Assembly (NCBI GenBank): GCA_023667845.1
Contig: JAMPIU010000143.1
Span: 188,574-252,573, forward strand
Reading direction: 5' to 3'
Source: Dehalobacter sp.
Lineage (GTDB): Bacteria; Bacillota; Desulfitobacteriia; Desulfitobacteriales; Syntrophobotulaceae
Length of the DNA: 64,000 bases
The notes beneath the pieces were generated by a model. The model had not been told where the DNA came from and did not search any database. It saw nothing but the letters and a program-made list of their open reading frames with translations. Shown here piece by piece: positions 33,119-43,119 of this stretch. The translations under genes and the position numbers were made by a program. How positions within the stretch are numbered: the stretch's first letter is position 1; the number at the start of each line of letters is the position of its first letter.

Positions 33119-34240
33119 GTGTCGGAGAATAAACTATTATTGTCATTTTTACTGGAGTTAAGTGAAGCCCTGTCGAATTATGGGCAACCGCAGATCCAAG
33201 AAGAACTGCCAAAGTTGTTTTGCGAAGTTATCAAGGCAGATGGTTGTGCGATTTATGAGCAAAAGATTAATAACTATATTTTACATAAACAATATTCTGC
33301 TTCGGTTTCTTCTCACTTTGCTTCTTTCTGGCAGCAGATAGGATGGAATTTATCGACTGCTGCTGTATATATTGACGCTCCAGAAACAGCCGGTCGCTAT
33401 TTTCAGGGCGGAATCTGGCAGAGATGCCTGTTGTTGCCTTTGCTAAGAGAAGATAAGATTGAGGGAGTTTTGCTGGCAGGCTGGGCGGGGGCCTCTCCTT
33501 TAGACGGTTTATTACAGGAAGAGCTACGGCTATTGCAGCCTATATCCCAGCTTTTATCAGATATCTATTGCACCACGCATCTGATCACTGCCCTGAAAGA
33601 GAGAGAAAAATCCCTGTCCATCCTTTATCAGAAAGCTGAACAAGAGCTGGAAAACGGTCGCAGACAGGTATCTCTAGCCCTTCATGATGAGGTGGGACAA
33701 GTGCTGACCTCAATATTGCTTCAATTGAATATTCTGCAACAATCAGAGGATTTGGACTATGTGAAAGGGCGTCTTGGTGGTCTTTCTCATATTACGCAGC
33801 AAACCCTTGAGGAAGTCCGGCGTATTTCCCATAATTTGCGGCCTGCTCTATTAGAAAATTTAGGTTTACAGGCGGCGTTGGAATCTCATATTAAGGAATA
33901 CACAGATTCCACGGGAATTGCGGTGGAGTTTAGGCACCATAATCTGGAGGAACGCTTACCCGATGATGTGGAGATCATCGTTTACCGGGCGGTGCAGGAA
34001 GGACTGACCAATGTCGCCCGCCATGCCGGAGCCAGTTCCGTTATGATTAATTTGACGGTAAAAAGCAACAAACTTCTGCTGCAAATTGCAGATAATGGTA
34101 AAGGCATGGAAGAAAGAAAAAGCAGTGGCCTCGGTCTTTTGGGGATAGAGGAGCGGGTGAAGCTGGCTAAGGGTAAATTCTGGTTGCTTAATCAAAAGGA
34201 TCAGGGATTAACTCTCAATATCTTACTGCCCTTGGTTTAA
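33119..34240 (+). CDS. GAF-domain sensor histidine kinase (NarL-type partner)
   Basis: 373 residues, GTG start 33119 after 'AAAGGAGGG'. No transmembrane segment, so a cytoplasmic sensor. N-terminal GAF-like domain (about 15-155), coiled coil, HisKA_3 dimerisation box 'SLALHDEVGQVLTSILLQLN' with the phospho-accepting His, and HATPase_c with N box 'VQEGLTNVARHAGA', G1 'DNGKGM' and 'GLGLLGIEERV'. Two cysteines in the GAF part ('FCEVIKADGCAIYE') could bind a cofactor, but this is speculation. Paired with the regulator 17 bases downstream; probably controls the molybdoenzyme operon. Confidence 0.92.
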   Translation: MSENKLLLSFLLELSEALSNYGQPQIQEELPKLFCEVIKADGCAIYEQKINNYILHKQYSASVSSHFASFWQQIGWNLSTAAVYIDAPETAGRYFQGGIWQRCLLLPLLREDKIEGVLLAGWAGASPLDGLLQEELRLLQPISQLLSDIYCTTHLITALKEREKSLSILYQKAEQELENGRRQVSLALHDEVGQVLTSILLQLNILQQSEDLDYVKGRLGGLSHITQQTLEEVRRISHNLRPALLENLGLQAALESHIKEYTDSTGIAVEFRHHNLEERLPDDVEIIVYRAVQEGLTNVARHAGASSVMINLTVKSNKLLLQIADNGKGMEERKSSGLGLLGIEERVKLAKGKFWLLNQKDQGLTLNILLPLV

Positions 34241-34257: not shown

Positions 34258-34929
34258 ATGGAAAAGCAGACAACAATTTATTTGGTAGACGACCATAAAC
34301 TGTTGCGGGACACCCTGCGGATGTTCCTGGAAAGTAAAGCGAATATTCGGGTGGTTGGCGAGGCAGGCAATGGAGCCGATGCGGTTGCGGAAGTACTCTA
34401 TTTGCAGCCGGATTTGGTACTGATGGATATTTCTCTGCCTGATTTTGATGGAGTAGAAGCCACGGCCCGAATTATCAAAGGTCTGCCAAATATTAAAGTG
34501 ATTGCTGTTACCATGCATCCGGAACAGCTTTATTTGCTAAAGTTTCTCGAAGCCGGCGGGATGGGGTATCTTCATAAATCTGCGGCTGACCGGGATCTGC
34601 TTAAGGCAATTGAGCAAGTTCAGCGGGGTGAGGTTTTCTTAAGCACAGATGGTGTGCAGGTAATAGCCGGCCAATACAGGGTTCAGAGTTCAATTCCATC
34701 GGCAGTACCCCAGAAGGAAATATCCCCTGAAGTTCTATCTTACAGAGAAAGACAGGTACTTGGTCTGCTTTCCCATGGTTATAGCAGTCGGGAAATCGGT
34801 GAGATACTTTTTTTATCCGCCAGTACCGTTGAAACTTACAAACGGCGTATCAGTGAAAAACTAAAATTATTTAAGAAAGCGGATTTAGTGGAATACACCA
34901 TCCGTCATAAAATATTTGAAGATATGTAG
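34258..34929 (+). CDS. NarL/FixJ family response regulator
   Basis: 223 residues, ATG 34258 after 'GTAGGAGG'. Receiver domain with acidic pair 'LVDDHKLLRD', phospho-acceptor Asp in 'LVLMDISLPDFDG', Thr in 'VIAVTMHP' and Lys in 'YLHKSAADRDLLKAI'; C-terminal LuxR-type HTH 'LSYRERQVLGLLSHGYSSREIGEILFLSASTVETYKRRI' region. It should be phosphorylated by the adjacent kinase and activate the downstream operon. Confidence 0.94.
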   Translation: MEKQTTIYLVDDHKLLRDTLRMFLESKANIRVVGEAGNGADAVAEVLYLQPDLVLMDISLPDFDGVEATARIIKGLPNIKVIAVTMHPEQLYLLKFLEAGGMGYLHKSAADRDLLKAIEQVQRGEVFLSTDGVQVIAGQYRVQSSIPSAVPQKEISPEVLSYRERQVLGLLSHGYSSREIGEILFLSASTVETYKRRISEKLKLFKKADLVEYTIRHKIFEDM

Positions 34930-34953: not shown

Positions 34954-35058
34954 AATAGGGAAAGAAGATCGATGGTTCTTCATGACAGACAGATAAATCT
35001 CTTTTTTGTAAACTAAAGTCAAATTGTATGCGCGTACGATTTAAAGGAGTTGTTTTTG

Positions 35059-35484
35059 GTGAGATGGATGAAGGAAAACAAAGGAACAAAGGAAGCTGAA
35101 ATAATCGTAGCTGTTCCTAATGTCTGGCTGCGGCTACCGATTGTCGATTTGCTTTTCTTGATGAGGAAAGGGTATATTCACGTCAAAAGCATGACGGAAT
35201 TATATGAAAGGGTGAAAAAAAAATCCGGCGGTATCTTAATTATTGACATTTTCGCCTATAAGGAAAGCTGTCCAGATACCATAGCCCGCCTCAAAACGGA
35301 AAACCCCACGCTTGCAATTGTTCTTCTCCTTTCCAGGGACGAGTCAGTCTATGCTCATTATTCAGAAAGCATCGACGCTTGTTTCATTGTTGAAAAGGAA
35401 AAAGCGGACAAAATGCTTTTGCCTGCCCTTCACCAAGCCTTGCAAAAACAACAAATGCTTTTAAACGAAAAGGAGGTAAATTTG
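35059..35484 (+). CDS. Degenerate receiver-like reading frame, open in frame into the molybdoenzyme gene
   Basis: About 142 codons starting at GTG 35059 (or TTG 35056), with AAAGGAG nine bases upstream, so it has its own translation signal. The pattern beta strand 'AEIIVAVP', 'GGILIIDIFAY' with an Asp at the beta-3 end, 'AIVLLLSRDE' and 'ACFIVEKEKADKMLLPALHQAL' resembles a response-regulator receiver, but the N-terminal acidic pair is missing. No stop codon separates it from the next gene: its last codons contain that gene's ribosome site. A TAA one frame over (35477-35479) lies right after AAGGAGG, so a one-base indel may have fused the two. Function unknown. Confidence 0.6.
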
Positions 35485-37971
35485 ATGGGAAAAGAAGATG
35501 GAAACATTCTCAGGAGAAATTTTGGCAGAAGAACCTTCCTTAAAGGCACGGCGGCTGCGGCAGCGATGGCTGGCGCGGTTGCGGCGTCTCCGGGAAGTAC
35601 GGTACTGCAGGCTTTGGCTGCAGGTGATGACGCGCAAACTACTAGCCTAGAGGAGCAAATTTTCGCGGGTGCCTGCCCAGCCTGTTGTCTTGGCGGCTGT
35701 AGCCTCAATGTACATGTCAGGAATGGGAAAATCGTTAAAACATCTAAGCGGGATTTTCCAGATAAGAAATGGAATCGTATTTGTGGGAAAGGTCTTTCAC
35801 ACGCACAACGAACCTATGAAGAAAGGCGCCTGAAATATCCGATGCGTAGAGTCGGGGAACGTGGTGAAGGCAAATGGGAGCAGCTTTCATGGGATGAAGC
35901 CATTCGATATATTTGTGAAAAGTGGAAAGGTTATCAACAGGAGTTTGGTAATTCCAGTATTGCCTATTCCTTTGGTGGAGGAAATTCAACAGTATGCGTA
36001 AACAATTATTATAAGAGGCTGTTTAATTGGATGGGGGGCACCTTTCTTTTTCATATGTTTGATATGGCGGCAGTGGACTCTGGGGGTAGATCATTTGGCT
36101 ACGGACCTTGGTTCTTCGGGAATGCTATTCCTGATATAATAAACGCCAAATACATCTTTATGTGGGGGACCAATCCTACCTCGTCGTACAAGCAAAATTG
36201 GCATTTTGTACAGGAAGCGGTTGAAAACGGGTCAAAGTTGATCGTTATTGACCCAAATTACACAACTACCGCATCTAAGGGAACCCAGTTTGTACCGATT
36301 CGGATGGCGACCGACGCTGCGCTAGCTATGGCAATGATTAATATTGTTGTTAAGGAAGGTTTAACAGATAAGGAATTTATTGCTCAAAATACCGTTGGCC
36401 CCTTCTTAGTAAAAGAAAGCGATGGTTTATATTTGCGCCAGAGTGATCTCGGAGGAGCAGCCAATGCTGAAAATAACGCGATTGTTGTCAGAGGAGCCGA
36501 CGGGAAAGTCGGTTTGCCTTCAGAAATTCTCAACCCCGTTATTAATGGTACGTTTGAGATTAATGGCGTTAAAGTAACCACCGCTTATGATTTGCTGTTG
36601 GAAAGAACAGCCGAATGGACGCCTGAAAAAGCCTCTGAGCTTTGCGACATTCCCGTGGAGACCATCTATGAACTTGCTCGTATGTTTGCTGCCGGTCCTA
36701 CTACCATATATACCTCTAATGGGATTGACCATACGGGTAATGGAGCACCAGCATATATGGCAATGTATGCTTTGGCTATGATAACAGGTCAAGTGGCGAA
36801 GCCTGGAGCAGGACTTAATGGTGATGAGTCCATGGCTTTAGGAACGATATTCGATTGTTCAAGTATTATCTACCCGCCGGGGAAAGTTCCCGGGCCAGTT
36901 GTTCCTTCACTTAAGTTACTTGATGTTTTGAATGAAGGCAAAATTGGTGATACTCCTTTAACGTTAAAAAGTTTATATCTTAGCACTTCAAACTTTCTTC
37001 GGGCTCAGTCCGAGAGAAAAGCTGGGATTGAAGCATTCAAAAAGCTGGACTTGGTTGTTATTGCCGATCAATATATGAGCGATACCGCCAAATATGCAGA
37101 TATCGTTTTACCTGTATGCGGATACTTTGAATATGAAAGCGTACTCACTATGTTTAACCCATTTGCTAAAATGACTGAAAAGGCAATAGACCCTCTTTAT
37201 GAGAGCAAACCAGATTTGGAAATCATCAATTTACTAGGAAAAGGTATGGGTCTTGGGGATGAGTTCGTAGTTACCAGAGATGAGTTTTACACAAAACTTA
37301 TGGATAACGATGCCTGTAAGGCGGTCGGCATTAGTTGGGAGAATTTGAAAAAGGAAAAGACAATGCGCTATATGCCGGATGACTATATTCATGGAGCATA
37401 TGCCAGGTCAGGTGGCGGAGCCGCATTTATGACTGGTGCAGAAGCTCACTCGGGAAATGGTTCTTTCCCGACTGCTACCGGACGTGCCCAATTCTATCAG
37501 GAAGCCTTTAAACCCTATCTCGATTATGGTCAAAAAATTGATCAGAAAAAAGAGAGTTTGCCTTATTGGGAACCGCCAATAGAAGCTTGGCAAGATAATC
37601 CGTTGTCTTCCAAATATCCTTTAATCTTCGCCACAGAACGGAGTAGATTAAAAGCAAATACCGGTTTTACCCATGTTCAGTGGTTATTAGAAATAATGCC
37701 AGAACCTTTTGCCAAGATCAATCCTCAGGATGCGGCTGCGCGTGGGATTGTCCAAGGAGATACAATAAAGGTTATTAATGATCGGGGTCATATGGTTTTG
37801 AAAGCATTTGTGACTGCAGCTGTTCGCCCTGGAATGATAGTTCTCAACCATGGGTTTGAGCATGATCAGTTTATTGATGGAGACGAAGGTGATTTAACCT
37901 CCAGAGCGTTTAATCCTGCGGTCCCCAATAATGCCTACTATGATGTCTTGTGCGAAGTTAAAAAAATGTAA
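35485..37971 (+). CDS. Tat-exported molybdopterin oxidoreductase catalytic subunit (DmsA/PsrA-like)
   Basis: 828 residues from ATG 35485, which has a perfect AAAAGGAGGT seven bases upstream. N-terminal twin-arginine signal 'FGRRTFLKG' plus alanine-rich hydrophobic stretch; [4Fe-4S] site 'CPACCLGGC' with the fourth Cys in 'RICGKG'; molybdopterin domain ('MWGTNPTSSYKQNW', 'LIVIDPNYTTTASK'); C-terminal molydop-binding domain ('GDTIKVINDRGHMVLKAFVT'). The metal ligand may be Asp in 'MFDMAAVD' by rough alignment with DmsA, an uncertain point. Acts outside the membrane as the terminal reductase (or oxidase) of the module; substrate unknown. The same frame extends upstream to 35050 without a stop. 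Confidence 0.9.
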   Translation: MGKEDGNILRRNFGRRTFLKGTAAAAAMAGAVAASPGSTVLQALAAGDDAQTTSLEEQIFAGACPACCLGGCSLNVHVRNGKIVKTSKRDFPDKKWNRICGKGLSHAQRTYEERRLKYPMRRVGERGEGKWEQLSWDEAIRYICEKWKGYQQEFGNSSIAYSFGGGNSTVCVNNYYKRLFNWMGGTFLFHMFDMAAVDSGGRSFGYGPWFFGNAIPDIINAKYIFMWGTNPTSSYKQNWHFVQEAVENGSKLIVIDPNYTTTASKGTQFVPIRMATDAALAMAMINIVVKEGLTDKEFIAQNTVGPFLVKESDGLYLRQSDLGGAANAENNAIVVRGADGKVGLPSEILNPVINGTFEINGVKVTTAYDLLLERTAEWTPEKASELCDIPVETIYELARMFAAGPTTIYTSNGIDHTGNGAPAYMAMYALAMITGQVAKPGAGLNGDESMALGTIFDCSSIIYPPGKVPGPVVPSLKLLDVLNEGKIGDTPLTLKSLYLSTSNFLRAQSERKAGIEAFKKLDLVVIADQYMSDTAKYADIVLPVCGYFEYESVLTMFNPFAKMTEKAIDPLYESKPDLEIINLLGKGMGLGDEFVVTRDEFYTKLMDNDACKAVGISWENLKKEKTMRYMPDDYIHGAYARSGGGAAFMTGAEAHSGNGSFPTATGRAQFYQEAFKPYLDYGQKIDQKKESLPYWEPPIEAWQDNPLSSKYPLIFATERSRLKANTGFTHVQWLLEIMPEPFAKINPQDAAARGIVQGDTIKVINDRGHMVLKAFVTAAVRPGMIVLNHGFEHDQFIDGDEGDLTSRAFNPAVPNNAYYDVLCEVKKM

Positions 37972-37985
37972 AGGGGGAATAAACA

Positions 37986-38603
37986 ATGCGTTATGGAATG
38001 GCGATAGATTTAAAACGTTGTATTGGTTGTCATGCCTGTTCGGTGGCCTGTAAGTCCAATAACAACTTGCCTAATCATATTTGGTGGAACAAGGTATTGA
38101 CCGTTGGCGGAGAGGGAATGGATACGGCATCGGGCACATACCCTAATGCAAAAATACAGTATGTACCGATGAACTGTCAGCACTGTGAAAATCCTGCTTG
38201 TGTCAAGGCTTGTCCTGTAGGAGCTACCTACAAACGGGATGAGGACGGAATTGTCATTCAGGATTATGATAAATGTATTGGCTGCAGGATGTGCATGGTG
38301 GCCTGCCCTTACAGTGCCCGCAGCTTTAATTGGAGCAAGCCGGAGTATTATTTAGAGCATACGCTGGGTGATATCGATGCCCCGGTGCATCAGTATAATG
38401 TGGTGGAAAAGTGTACTTTTTGCGTGAACCGGATTGCCAGAGGTGCAGAGCCGGCGTGTATGGAGCTTTGTATCGGTCGTGCCCGCTACTGGGGAGATTT
38501 GGACGATCCGAACAGTGAAGTCAGCAAAGCGATCCAAGGCCGCAACTATGTCAAGATGCTTGAAGAAAAAGGTACCGGCCCGTCCGTGTACTATTTAACT
38601 TAA
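37986..38603 (+). CDS. 4Fe-4S dicluster electron-transfer subunit (DmsB-like)
   Basis: 205 residues, ATG 37986 after 'AAAGGGGG'. Four cysteine groups for four [4Fe-4S] clusters: 'CIGCHACSVAC', 'CQHCENPACVKACP', 'CIGCRMCMVACP', 'CTFCVNRIARGAEPAC' with 'LCIGRARYWGDL'. This is the electron wire between the NrfD-type anchor and the molybdoenzyme. No signal peptide of its own, so it is likely exported with the catalytic subunit through Tat. Fourteen bases after the catalytic gene. Confidence 0.95.
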   Translation: MRYGMAIDLKRCIGCHACSVACKSNNNLPNHIWWNKVLTVGGEGMDTASGTYPNAKIQYVPMNCQHCENPACVKACPVGATYKRDEDGIVIQDYDKCIGCRMCMVACPYSARSFNWSKPEYYLEHTLGDIDAPVHQYNVVEKCTFCVNRIARGAEPACMELCIGRARYWGDLDDPNSEVSKAIQGRNYVKMLEEKGTGPSVYYLT

Positions 38604-38619: not shown

Positions 38620-39804
38620 ATGAATGCAAAAGTGGCGAAGCAAGGTGGTTCAAAACTTTGGTTGATTATTTTCGCCCTTCTGTCAGTGATTGGCCTGGCT
38701 TGCTGGGTTTTGCAGCTGACCAAGGGTTTGCAGCTGACCAATTTGGATAACAATAATTGCTGGGGACTTTATATTATCGGGTTCATGCTTTTCACAGGTA
38801 TAGCAGCAGGTTCTCTGATCTTTTCCTCCTCCGCCTACCTTTTCAAAGGGATGGCGGAATATAAGCCTTTTACAAGGATAGCGGCCTTCGTCGGGGCTAT
38901 CGGCAGTGTAGTTGCCGCCGGACTCTTCATCATTGTGGATATCGGCAATCCGGAAAGAGTCTGGAATATTATTCTTAGCGCTAATATTGAATCCCCGATG
39001 TTTTGGGATACTGTGATTTTAGCAGCCTATGTTGTCATCGGCATTGTATTTACACGTCAGTTAATTATGGCGGAACAGGGCGAAAAAGAGGAGAAGGCCT
39101 TGTACGGCATTTCTCTGGTAGCCTTTATTGCGGGTTTATTCGTGACGGTTACCTCCTTCGCCTTCTCGATGCAGGTAGCCAGACCCTTGTGGAATAACCC
39201 GGTAGAACCGCTGTCATTTTTGGCGGCAGCCCTAGTGGCAGCGTTGGCATTGCTGATTATCCTCTTTGCGATACTTAATAAGAGCGGTTATATAGAGATA
39301 AGCAACGAAAAACTATCTAAACTGGGCAAGCTGGCCGGAGCATTTCTCGCGGTCGAATTGATGGTAGTCTTCGGTGAAGCAGCGATCGGTTTGTATGCCG
39401 GTGCTGGAGATGAATATAAGATCCTTAACTGGTTGGTACTCGGTAAAGGGGCACCACTCTTCTGGATAGAACTAATTGCTATTGCAACAGGTGTGGTTCT
39501 CCTGCTCAACAAGGGAACGCTCGTCGCAGGAGCGGGGGTCGGGATTCTTGCGATCTTCATGATTAAATACACACTTTTACAGGCCCAATTACTTAATCCA
39601 CTGCTTTCTTATCCCGGTCCTGAAGGTTACGTTAGCGGTCAGGGAATCTACCTACCTTCAATAATTGAAATCGGACTAGCAGTAGGTATTATTGCCTTGG
39701 GTTGTCTACTGGTCATGATCGGTCTCAATAAGCTTGATCTCGGTGCGAACACTAATCAAAGCCTGGATAAACATAGGCTTGGCGCGAGATCTGAGCAGGC
39801 TTAG
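38620..39804 (+). CDS. NrfD/PsrC family membrane anchor subunit
   Basis: 394 residues, ATG 38620 after 'GAAAGGGG'. About nine to ten transmembrane helices. 'NNCWGLYIIGFMLFTGIAAGSLI' and 'FIIVDIGNPERVWNII' are typical of the polysulfide reductase NrfD family, which exchanges electrons with menaquinol in the membrane. The third structural subunit of the complex. A hairpin follows before torD. Confidence 0.94.
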   Translation: MNAKVAKQGGSKLWLIIFALLSVIGLACWVLQLTKGLQLTNLDNNNCWGLYIIGFMLFTGIAAGSLIFSSSAYLFKGMAEYKPFTRIAAFVGAIGSVVAAGLFIIVDIGNPERVWNIILSANIESPMFWDTVILAAYVVIGIVFTRQLIMAEQGEKEEKALYGISLVAFIAGLFVTVTSFAFSMQVARPLWNNPVEPLSFLAAALVAALALLIILFAILNKSGYIEISNEKLSKLGKLAGAFLAVELMVVFGEAAIGLYAGAGDEYKILNWLVLGKGAPLFWIELIAIATGVVLLLNKGTLVAGAGVGILAIFMIKYTLLQAQLLNPLLSYPGPEGYVSGQGIYLPSIIEIGLAVGIIALGCLLVMIGLNKLDLGANTNQSLDKHRLGARSEQA

Positions 39805-39862: not shown

Positions 39863-39922
39863 AAAGCAATTAATAATTAAGCGGTAAAATCTTCAATATA
39901 GAAAATGGATAGGAGAGAAAAA

Positions 39923-40633
39923 ATGGTAAACACGCAAGAAGTAAACACGCAAGAACAAGAAATTCGAAGATCTTTGGCAGCATCCGATATGTATCAATTG
40001 TTGTCTATGTTTTTTCGCCTACCCACAGTGGAAATGGCTACTGCCTTGTTAAACGGAAGTCTAGCGGAAGATGTTATAGCTATTTACTGCGAGCTGAATT
40101 TCTCAATAGAAGAGATTCAACACATTAAAACCAAATTTACAACGTTCCAGAATGATGAAAAGACAAAGGAAGAGCTTCTTACAGAGATACGCCAAGAGTA
40201 TACACGATTGTTTACCAATCCGAAAAAACCGGCAATGGATATCTATGAAACATTGTTTTGCTTTAATCCCGAAAAGAATGAAGGAAGCCCCAGTCTTTTC
40301 ATTAGCCCGGCGGCTCTTGATGCAGAGCGTTGTTATAAGAAGGCTGGACTAATGATGACTAAGGAGGTCAACGAACCTGGTGACCATATGTCCACTGAGA
40401 TGGAATTCATGATGTATCTTTATCTGGAAAAGGCCAGAGCCTTACAGGAAAACAATCAAGAAAAACTTGATAGGAGAGAGGCGGAAATCCAAGAATTTTC
40501 AGAAGTACATTTGAAGAAATGGGCAAAACAGTTCTTTAATCATTGCATTACCTTAAGTAACAGCGAGGTTTACCGTACTCTCGGAGAAATAGGAAGCGCT
40601 TTTATGCGAGAAATGCTGGTTAAAAACTATTAA
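39923..40633 (+). CDS. TorD family molybdoenzyme chaperone
   Basis: 236 residues from ATG 39923, with AGGAGAG seven bases upstream. All-helical TorD/DmsD fold: 'SDMYQLLSMFFRLPTVEMATALL' at the N-terminus, 'EYTRLFTNPKKPAMDIYETLF', and the diagnostic 'EPGDHMSTEMEFMMYLY' near residue 150. Such proteins bind the Tat signal of the catalytic subunit and hold it until the cofactor is inserted. Its place in the operon ties it to the gene at 35485. Confidence 0.92.
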   Translation: MVNTQEVNTQEQEIRRSLAASDMYQLLSMFFRLPTVEMATALLNGSLAEDVIAIYCELNFSIEEIQHIKTKFTTFQNDEKTKEELLTEIRQEYTRLFTNPKKPAMDIYETLFCFNPEKNEGSPSLFISPAALDAERCYKKAGLMMTKEVNEPGDHMSTEMEFMMYLYLEKARALQENNQEKLDRREAEIQEFSEVHLKKWAKQFFNHCITLSNSEVYRTLGEIGSAFMREMLVKNY

Positions 40634-40663: not shown

Positions 40664-41806
40664 ATGAGATTCGAAAAAGGTTTTTCGATTAAGATAGCCG
40701 AGAATAGATGTTTAAACCAGACTCATCATGCAGTAGAATGCAATCATTGCATAGAGAATTGTCCCTCAAAGGCTATTTTATTACATGAACATAGCGTTTA
40801 TCTGAATAAAGACTTATGTTGTGGTTGTGGGTTATGTTTTAATGATTGTCCAACCCAGGTCTTTAGCTCCAGTCTATGGGATGAGACCTCAATAGTGGAA
40901 GAAGTAGAGGAACAGAAATGGAAAGCTACAGAGTTTTTTTGTGGTAAACATTCGTCTCCTTTTAATAAAGACAAGACGTGGAAAATGGGAGCAGTACAAT
41001 TACCGGCTTGTCTAAGTATGATTTCTAAGGGAGCTTGGTATGAATTCGGCTTAAAAACAGCAATTGAACTCCATTTGGACCAGTGTGAGGGGTGTTCTAT
41101 GTCTTGCACTTTATCCCGGTTGGACTTCAATGTAGGGACAGCGGCTGAATGGTTGGAGGCTTCAGGGTGTACACCGGAAATCAGCTATATACACCAGAGT
41201 AGTAAGGGTAAAACCAAAAAAAATCTTAAAGCGATCGAAACCGGACTCAAAGTTACTTCACGACGGGATTTGTTTTTGTCTGTGATAGGCAAAGGCAGGC
41301 AGATAAGCGAAAACATACGTAACAATACAAAATCTTTCTCTAAGGAACGTGATCAAGAACGACGAAATAGTTATTTGCCTGATTGGCAGAAACGTCTGGC
41401 TGAAGTGTATCCTAATAACAGGATTAAAGGCGCTTCTCCAGCTTATTGGCCAACAATTCAAATAAATGACAAATGCGTAAATTGTGGAATGTGTACTAAT
41501 TTTTGTCCCTCAAAGACCTTGAAAAATACTGTAGAAGGCGGTATCTGTACGCGCTATTTTACCAGTGGGTTGTGTTTGGACTGCCGGATTTGCCAATTGT
41601 TTTGTCCGAGAGAGGCTATAAGCAGAGACAGGGAAAAAGTTGAGAAACCCTTTGAAGCAACTACACTCTTCAGTGCGGCTGCTATAAAATGCCGGCGATG
41701 CACGAGTATTACCTTTGATAATACCAGGCATTTATGTTATTGGTGCCGGGAAGAAACCGCTATTGATGATGAGATTAAAGAAAAATACAGAAAACTATTA
41801 CTTTAG
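40664..41806 (+). CDS. Polyferredoxin-like 4Fe-4S protein of the molybdoenzyme operon
   Basis: 380 residues, ATG 40664. N-terminal pair of clusters ('CNHCIENCPSKAI', 'CCGCGLCFNDCP'), a middle segment with 'QLPACLSM' and 'CEGCSMSC' reminiscent of the cysteine part of heterodisulfide reductase/hydrogenase delta subunits, and C-terminal ferredoxin domain ('CVNCGMCTNFCPSKTL', 'CLDCRICQLFCPREAI'), ending with a rubredoxin-like 'CRRCTSI' ... 'CYWCREE'. No membrane helix or signal peptide, so cytoplasmic. It may feed electrons to or regulate the membrane complex; I know no characterised homologue. Confidence 0.85.
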   Translation: MRFEKGFSIKIAENRCLNQTHHAVECNHCIENCPSKAILLHEHSVYLNKDLCCGCGLCFNDCPTQVFSSSLWDETSIVEEVEEQKWKATEFFCGKHSSPFNKDKTWKMGAVQLPACLSMISKGAWYEFGLKTAIELHLDQCEGCSMSCTLSRLDFNVGTAAEWLEASGCTPEISYIHQSSKGKTKKNLKAIETGLKVTSRRDLFLSVIGKGRQISENIRNNTKSFSKERDQERRNSYLPDWQKRLAEVYPNNRIKGASPAYWPTIQINDKCVNCGMCTNFCPSKTLKNTVEGGICTRYFTSGLCLDCRICQLFCPREAISRDREKVEKPFEATTLFSAAAIKCRRCTSITFDNTRHLCYWCREETAIDDEIKEKYRKLLL

Positions 41807-41820
41807 ATGGTGGGAGTTAA

Positions 41821-43119
41821 GTGAATAAGGAGAAGCAAAGAGACAAAAAGCTCATAGGTATTACGGTATTGCTACTCATTTTTGCTGTCATTTATCAACA
41901 TTTTGCTAACGAAAAAGATACCTTGTCGGTTCTAAGACAGGGAGAACCGGCGGCAGCACGTTTTGAAAATGCAGGTGGAAACTATCCCAGCTATAAATTA
42001 TGGGATGCCCAAGAAAACTTTTTGGGATACGGTGTAATTGCCGGTGCTTCTGGTTATGGCGGCAAACTCTCAGTACTCAGTGTCTTGAATCCGGCAGGAC
42101 AAATCACCAAGGTTTCTCTAACCGAAAATAGTGAAACGCCTTTGTACTTGAATAAAGTCCTAGCCACTGGATTTTTGCAAAAGATTCTTGGAAGAAATCC
42201 TGAGCAAGGATTTGGGGATATCAATGCGGTGTCCGGAGCAACCATAACTTCGGAAGCGATTATTGCTGCGGTGCAAAAGGGTTCGGTCCAAATAGCGAAT
42301 GAGCAACTGGGTATGAAAATTCCCAACGATGATGGCGTTAATCCAACCTGGAAGGATATGGCGGCCCTAGCCTTAGTTTTGACGGCAATCATTTGCTCTG
42401 CCAGAAAGATTAAAAAGTTACGCCCATGGCTGTTATTTTTATCCGTAATTTTCATTGGATTTATTTTAAATAATTCTTTAACTTTCAGTAACTTTGTCAG
42501 TCTTTTCTCGGGTAACCTGCCGTCATTTGTAGAACGCCCGATTTGGTACCTGATGGTACCCGGTATCCTGATTATTACGCTGTTCCGGGGGGAGAATTTT
42601 TATTGCAGTTGGCTTTGTCCTTTTGGTGCGGTTCAGGAGGGAATATATCGCAGTCTAAACCTGTTTAAGTTTTCCCCTTCTCAAAACATCCAATCAAAAG
42701 TCGGTAAATATCGCTGGTGGATGTTGTGGGTAGCGGCCATGACCGCGTTAATTTTTAATAATGCCGGGATTGCCAGCTACGAACCGTTCTCTGTTTGCTT
42801 TGACGGCAGTGGGAATATTGCTCAATGGATCATCATGTCGATCATCCTGTTGATGTCAATTGCTTTGTTTCGTTTCTGGTGCCATAGTTTTTGTCCAGTA
42901 GGTTTGATGCTGGATTTTATGGCGCGCCTTCAACGGAAATTAAAGAGAAAGAAAATAGAGATTAGGGAAAATGCAAATTGTAATCATTGTGACAATGCTT
43001 CTTGTCCCCAAAAGATTTCCGGGATGAGTCGACAGGATAAGTTATACCTTGTTCTTGTTTCCATAGTAAATATAATCATTCTTATTGCTTTATTACTTAA
43101 TATTAGCAGTATGTCCTAG
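41821..43119 (+). CDS. NosR/NapH-like membrane flavoprotein with FMN-binding domain
   Basis: 432 residues, GTG 41821 after 'TGGTGGGAG'. An N-terminal signal anchor, an extracytoplasmic FMN-binding domain with covalent flavinylation motif 'VSGATITSEAI' (SGATxT), then about five transmembrane helices with two CxxxCP motifs ('CSWLCPFGAVQEG', 'CHSFCPVGLMLD') and a short 'CNHCDNASCP'. This resembles NosR/RdhC/NapH proteins that pass electrons across the membrane. FMN attachment would need ApbE, which is not in the window. Last gene of the module; likely an alternative electron route to the exported reductase. Confidence 0.9.
   Translation: MNKEKQRDKKLIGITVLLLIFAVIYQHFANEKDTLSVLRQGEPAAARFENAGGNYPSYKLWDAQENFLGYGVIAGASGYGGKLSVLSVLNPAGQITKVSLTENSETPLYLNKVLATGFLQKILGRNPEQGFGDINAVSGATITSEAIIAAVQKGSVQIANEQLGMKIPNDDGVNPTWKDMAALALVLTAIICSARKIKKLRPWLLFLSVIFIGFILNNSLTFSNFVSLFSGNLPSFVERPIWYLMVPGILIITLFRGENFYCSWLCPFGAVQEGIYRSLNLFKFSPSQNIQSKVGKYRWWMLWVAAMTALIFNNAGIASYEPFSVCFDGSGNIAQWIIMSIILLMSIALFRFWCHSFCPVGLMLDFMARLQRKLKRKKIEIRENANCNHCDNASCPQKISGMSRQDKLYLVLVSIVNIIILIALLLNISSMS

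Follow-up and report, generated by a model that had tools for sequence, protein, structure and literature searches.

Is a receiver-like domain that runs in frame into a molybdoenzyme one gene with two products, or did an error delete the stop of a separate small gene? The question arises in a 64,000-nucleotide stretch of a Dehalobacter sp. assembly (GCA_023667845.1, contig JAMPIU010000143.1, positions 188,574 to 252,573 of the forward strand; hereafter, the window, in whose coordinates and on whose forward strand all features below are given). Here, the frame 35059–37971 starts in a receiver-like domain, passes an internal Shine-Dalgarno (SD) sequence and ATG 35485, and continues into a DmsA-like molybdoenzyme with a twin-arginine translocation (Tat) signal. 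The frame is open between a stop before 35017 and the stop at 37971, encodes a fusion of 973 amino acids (aa) from TTG 35050 or 970 aa from GTG 35059, and has no stop between the receiver-like part and ATG 35485; the uninterrupted frame, both SD sequences and the ATG lie where the initial annotation of this DNA had placed them. Sequence comparisons confirm that the fusion is not an artefact, and we consider it quite probable that one gene gives two products, because the fusion and its internal start are conserved, the N-terminal domain (hereafter, N-domain) is under selection, and the gene shows both synteny and joint inheritance with a kinase/regulator pair encoded just upstream.

Conservation of the fusion and of its pseudo-receiver domain

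When the N-domain was compared to 61 relatives, ten genomes matched, each within one long open frame, and wider alignment-based searches (phylum sample of 398 genomes) raised this to 13 fused loci in 12 Bacillota genomes, all fusion families falling within this one phylum. The loci come from the window genome, its congener G004, three Desulfosporosinus (including D. hippei DSM 8344 and strain HMP52), one Desulfitobacterium metagenome-assembled genome (MAG), G034, G031, G032 (two loci), G008, the Syntrophomonadaceae MAG L024, and G114, which belongs to another class of Bacillota. Fused frames are 970–1,049 aa long where complete, and a stop between the two parts was found in 0/13; contig ends cut two loci (G052 on the 3' side, G008 on the 5' side), with the junction spanned in both. 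The N-domain is 94% identical to that of the window in G004 and 22–47% identical in the others. No plasmid copies of the fusion were found, and the open-access literature yielded no report of a receiver–molybdoenzyme fusion, nor of a Tat-exported oxidoreductase bearing a pseudo-receiver. Two fused operons lie next to each other in tandem in G032 (L069 13104–16217; L070 762–3695), each with its own kinase/regulator pair.

These data bear on the possibility that an indel or assembly error deleted the stop of a separate small gene. A TAA does lie one frame over (35477–35479), but it belongs to the end of the extended SD sequence GGAGGTAA, and the same open frame recurs at 13 loci in 12 genomes, two of which (G032 and G034) carry the fused locus on single-contig assemblies. 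A separate small gene ending at this TAA, which the initial annotation had suggested looking for in related strains, did not appear among the relatives searched; the remaining hits, outside the fused loci, came from complete NarL-type regulators or from the Tat regions of other molybdoenzymes. Of the two explanations initially offered, internal initiation therefore stands, supported by a conserved internal SD and start, and loss of a stop through an indel, with the fusion in frame at all 13 loci, has next to no probability left.

The N-domain (35059–35445) is only weakly recognizable from the window sequence alone (PF00072, E = 0.0094, under the Pfam cut-off). As a family, however, it is firmly recognized: PF00072 finds 8 of 10 members (best 6.9e-9), and a PDB search with the domain profile retrieves response regulators of the NarL/LuxR type at 8e-9. 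The AlphaFold2 model shows a (beta-alpha)5 fold (predicted local distance difference test score averaging 63 for 190 residues, near 75 within the domain and <50 across linker and signal) and resembles receiver domains in Foldseek, with a target-normalised template modelling score up to 0.82, so that fold and profile together identify the family as receiver domains. The acidic pair that binds Mg is absent at 12/12 loci, replaced by P/S/K plus N/H (Pro20-Asn21 in the window), and the residue set of a competent receiver (DD, Asp, Ser/Thr, Lys) is thus incomplete. The phospho-acceptor Asp63 is kept in 13/13, Ser92 in 12/13 and Lys113 in 11/13, all three being present in the window. Because both acidic residues are lost, the domain is classified by its sequence as a pseudo-receiver under a published definition (PMC12632262). 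It shares this loss with known pseudo-receivers (PMC12632262). It is also without a DNA-binding output: there is no GerE match, and the Tat precursor occupies the position that the LuxR-type helix-turn-helix (HTH) output holds in NarL-type regulators. The second G032 domain is also without Ser92, Lys113 and a conserved Trp.

The ratio of nonsynonymous to synonymous substitutions (dN/dS) of the N-domain between close pairs is 0.13–0.36, which indicates that the protein is under purifying selection. This is relevant to a reading in which the short enzyme form alone matters and the upstream frame is either a translated leader, acting by translational coupling over the internal start, or the decaying relic of a regulator, its protein being functionless. 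Such a reading would fit the weak, non-ATG upstream start, the loss of the acidic pair, and the faster evolution of the N-domain in the Desulfosporosinus trio (dN/dS 0.15–0.26 vs 0.05–0.07 for the catalytic part). It does not fit an Asp63 that is invariant at 20–40% identity, a dN/dS well under 1, a retained receiver fold, a frame that runs uninterrupted into the enzyme at all loci although coupling does not need it, or a domain that is inherited with the kinase and regulator (see below), and we consider it quite unlikely.

Internal translation start and the Tat-targeted enzyme

As expected of a gene with two in-frame starts, all 13 loci contain an internal in-frame start codon behind a conserved SD sequence, 13–21 codons ahead of the twin arginines. 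The codon varies among ATG, TTG and GTG, which places M, L or V at this residue, and SD energies at nine loci range from −11.5 to −12.7 kcal/mol. In the window, the SD sequence AAAAGGAGGT (35468–35477) precedes ATG 35485 (site 35468–35487; TTG 35482 is adjacent) and pairs with the anti-SD at −12.3 kcal/mol, the sole site at or below −11 before an in-frame start in the 49 long frames of the 64-kb window. As a background, the window and ten loci (11 stretches, about 160 kb) contain 4 in-frame starts with an SD of −11.4 or better per 47,498 codons (8e-5 per codon), so that about 0.002 such sites are expected by chance per 21-codon linker, and 0.016 for an ATG at −7.5. Using synonymous recoding of the linkers, an equal or better site persisted in 0.7–5.8% of resamples per locus (13% in L024); since the loci share kinship, these per-locus figures are not to be multiplied as independent. 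Codon usage gives TTG about 20% of Leu codons and GTG 13–35% of Val codons. Together, background counts and resampling rule out a chance internal SD. A promoter scan for an internal promoter of the short form gave matches at shuffle level. Five non-fused homologues (822–831 aa frames) start at the same spot, 13–19 codons ahead of the twin arginines with an SD of −10.7 to −12.4, and comparison with them therefore identifies the internal start as the ancestral start type of the enzyme alone.

The predicted short form (35485–37971; 828 aa) opens with a Tat signal peptide (35485–35619) that has the SRRxFLK-type motif, hydrophobic stretch and AxA site of Tat substrates (RRTFLK...ALA, with likely cleavage after ALA). 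TAT_signal is matched in 10/10 alignment members, and the signal is N-terminal in the short form alone. The catalytic part contains the Molybdopterin (1.6e-48), Molydop_binding (1.6e-19) and Fe4S4 (2.7e-8) domains, all above the Pfam cut-off, and these molybdopterin, dinucleotide-binding and iron-sulfur domains define it as a member of the dimethyl sulfoxide (DMSO) reductase family. Named DmsA/YnfE and type II models match under their curated cut-offs (TIGR02166, 3.9e-100), and sequence comparison with solved structures places a type II enzyme (5e7o/4ydd) and ethylbenzene dehydrogenase (2ivf) nearest to the catalytic part. When the window genome is set against G004 (L012), the catalytic domain is a mosaic with 79–97% DNA identity (35850–37950), whereas the rest of the operon is mostly 95–100% identical, which suggests that the catalytic part was repeatedly exchanged or diversified between these two genomes.

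The initial annotation held that a Tat signal at about residue 150 could not work normally. This is too strong: Tat recognises a tethered internal signal in the Rieske protein Sco2149, for which a stretch of only about eight residues ahead of the twin arginines is enough (PMC5449189). By this precedent, the long form may also have access to the Tat pathway. One could go further and propose that the long form alone matters, its tethered signal working while the pseudo-receiver stays on the inner face of the membrane and is cleaved away along with the signal peptide, and the internal start being a vestige of a former separate gene. The precedent of Sco2149, where about eight residues before the twin arginines suffice (PMC5449189), the longer linker in our fusion and the likely signal-peptidase site behind it would all agree with this. 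Against it, the internal SD and start are present at 13/13 loci, far over chance and even after an exchange of the enzyme in G114 (see below), and the interchange of TTG, GTG and ATG is the behaviour only of a start codon. Moreover, Sco2149 shares with the fusion a twin-arginine signal away from the N-terminus, but its tether consists of Sec-inserted membrane helices (PMC5449189), whereas here it is a folded, soluble cytoplasmic domain that can be bypassed through the internal start. We therefore regard a role for the long form alone as improbable.

The two-product reading also has analogues among proteins with internal starts. AerR of Rhodobacter capsulatus has long and short isoforms, the latter from an internal CTG start, as shown by experiment (PMC6199135). 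AerR resembles our gene in having one frame with two in-frame starts and products that differ in their N-terminal region and regulation; it differs in being a cytoplasmic regulator with 41 extra residues (PMC6199135), whereas here a whole pseudo-receiver precedes an exported respiratory enzyme and the isoforms are predicted. Similarly, SpaO and ClpB are reported to yield a full-length and a shorter C-terminal protein through internal translation (PMC13059759, PMC6168691), but, unlike the fusion here, with no change of compartment and no receiver domain.

Association with the kinase/regulator pair and proposed role

Wherever the sequence reaches, the regulator lies immediately upstream of the fusion (12/12) together with the kinase (11/11), whereas the pair is absent upstream of 7/7 non-fused homologues. 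In the window, it comprises a histidine kinase (33119–34240; HisKA_3 1.2e-10, HATPase_c 1.5e-9, with a weak GAF-like N-terminal match) and a NarL/UvrY-type response regulator with a complete receiver and LuxR HTH (34258–34929; PF00072 5e-25, GerE 1.5e-15). Several TATCAAATGATAC-like repeats precede the non-fused homologues of G031 and G032 (before 5070 and 10318 in L071; before the complex iron-sulfur molybdoenzyme [CISM] genes in L093), pointing to a different regulator for these homologues.

A comparison of G114 with the window revealed that parts of the locus have separate histories. The kinase (63% identity), regulator (67%) and N-domain (47%) of G114 are of the window type, whereas its Tat/catalytic and 4Fe-4S parts are of the Desulfosporosinus type (catalytic domain 75% vs 37%), the identity switch falling after the internal start, around the Tat signal. 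Phylogenetically, the window, G004 and G114 form a clade in the N-domain (100/100) and regulator (89/84) trees, whereas the catalytic domain rejects this clade (approximately unbiased test, p-AU 1.7e-6), so that the domain travels with the kinase/regulator pair. By these comparisons, the catalytic part was exchanged in G114 without separating the pseudo-receiver from the kinase and regulator, and the in-frame fusion with its internal start either survived this event or was restored afterwards. The tie to the upstream pair proposed in the initial annotation is thus supported by both synteny and module exchange. A single clade of fused catalytic domains was dropped (p-AU 0.0007), and because the catalytic tree thus splits the fused enzymes, the kinase–regulator–pseudo-receiver module appears to require two changes: a gain of the whole module with a joint loss of pair and domain elsewhere, for example, or else two separate gains.

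Taken jointly, that the gene has two products and that its N-domain serves the kinase/regulator pair is, in our judgement, likely. Under this two-product reading, a weak upstream GTG or TTG start (SD about −8 kcal/mol) would produce a long form of about 970 aa, composed of pseudo-receiver, helical linker, Tat signal and molybdoenzyme. The internal start, usually with a stronger SD and otherwise with an ATG, would produce an ordinary Tat precursor of about 820 aa, which a TorD-like chaperone would mature for export, to serve as catalytic subunit in a respiratory complex of the DmsABC type. The long form would be held in the cytoplasm or presented at the membrane, with the pseudo-receiver inside either way, and the earlier suggestion that it could be a cytoplasmic pool or sensor is plausible. 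The pseudo-receiver would functionally be part of the upstream pair; with the acidic residues gone, it probably acts by docking on the kinase or by pairing with the regulator, with no normal phosphotransfer. More tentatively, and with somewhat less than an even chance of being right, enzyme precursor awaiting export might bind or titrate the kinase or regulator and so exert feedback on the two-component system of its own operon. A further, unlikely variant would make the long form an export checkpoint, in which the pseudo-receiver is tethered until the precursor is folded, cofactor-loaded and taken by Tat, and then leaves the membrane face together with the cleaved signal peptide, such that the kinase/regulator pair could read export status; a two-component system would then take its input from protein maturation, not from a ligand.

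Several points weigh against the two-product reading and the role assigned to the domain. The internal SD is weaker (−7.6) in the three Desulfosporosinus and L024, although the start there is ATG, and the long-form start of the paralogue G032b is poorly defined, with almost no SD (−1.5). A conserved frame is no proof that the long form accumulates; dependence on the kinase and regulator is read from synteny and exchange; and Asp63, Ser92 and Lys113 are mostly retained, so that phosphorylation could still occur. The sequences themselves show the conserved in-frame fusion and internal start, a receiver fold lacking the acidic residues, strict synteny with the kinase/regulator pair, and inheritance together with that pair when the enzyme part changed; we infer the production of both proteins in cells, and the direction and chemistry of any feedback.

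If both products are made, a two-component system would be joined to the enzyme it controls by protein fusion, not by substrate sensing, and the choice of start codon would decide which enzyme copies bear the signalling domain. The locus would offer a concrete case for two questions, namely, what pseudo-receivers without a metal site do, and whether maturation or export of Tat enzymes reports to transcription. Gene callers that choose the internal start would hide the upstream domain, so similar cases may be overlooked.

Long-form leader and operon layout

The long-form start is TTG or GTG at every locus where it can be placed, usually after a AAAGGAGYTGTTTTG-type sequence at about −8 kcal/mol; in the window, the SD AAAGGAG (35043–35049; duplex energy −8.0) and GTG 35059 form this site (35043–35061). 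The motif AAAGGAGYTGTTTTTG tags the fusion gene in most carriers, and a further occurrence of the leader motif, in G003 (C1:1982455), lies antisense within an ATPase gene and was discarded as a chance match. Immediately 5' of the long-form SD is an inverted repeat, AAATTGTATGCGCGTACGATTT (35021–35042), which is also present in G004 and G114, and the Desulfosporosinus/Desulfitobacterium relatives have a different one (TTGTGC-N6-GCACAA type) in the same place. A comparison of the window repeat with Rfam gave no family and one chance-level match; the element could be an RNA hairpin or an operator.

The operon runs from the kinase (33119) and NarL-type regulator (34258) through the pseudo-receiver/molybdoenzyme fusion (35059) to genes for a 4Fe-4S electron-transfer subunit (DmsB-like, 37986–38603; Fer4_11 5.4e-23), an NrfD-type membrane anchor (38620–39804; NrfD 5.9e-37), a TorD/DMSO-reductase-II-type maturation chaperone (39905–40633; Nitrate_red_del 3.3e-18, TIGR03482 4e-16), a polyferredoxin and an RnfG/NapH-like protein. 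With DmsABC/YnfEFGH and type II operons, it shares the Tat catalytic subunit, 4Fe-4S subunit, NrfD-type anchor and TorD/DmsD-type chaperone; what sets it apart from both is a pseudo-receiver at the N-terminus, a kinase/regulator pair encoded upstream, and genes for the polyferredoxin and the NapH-like protein. The polyferredoxin-like 4Fe-4S protein (40664–41806) has ferredoxin-type matches alone, all under the cut-off, and is kept in most fused operons. The last gene (41821–43119) encodes an RnfG-like flavin mononucleotide-binding domain joined to a NapH/NosR-like membrane 4Fe-4S protein (NosR 5.4e-14, NapH 1.3e-10, RnfG 6.9e-8, all under the cut-off) and is kept at the end of several fused operons.
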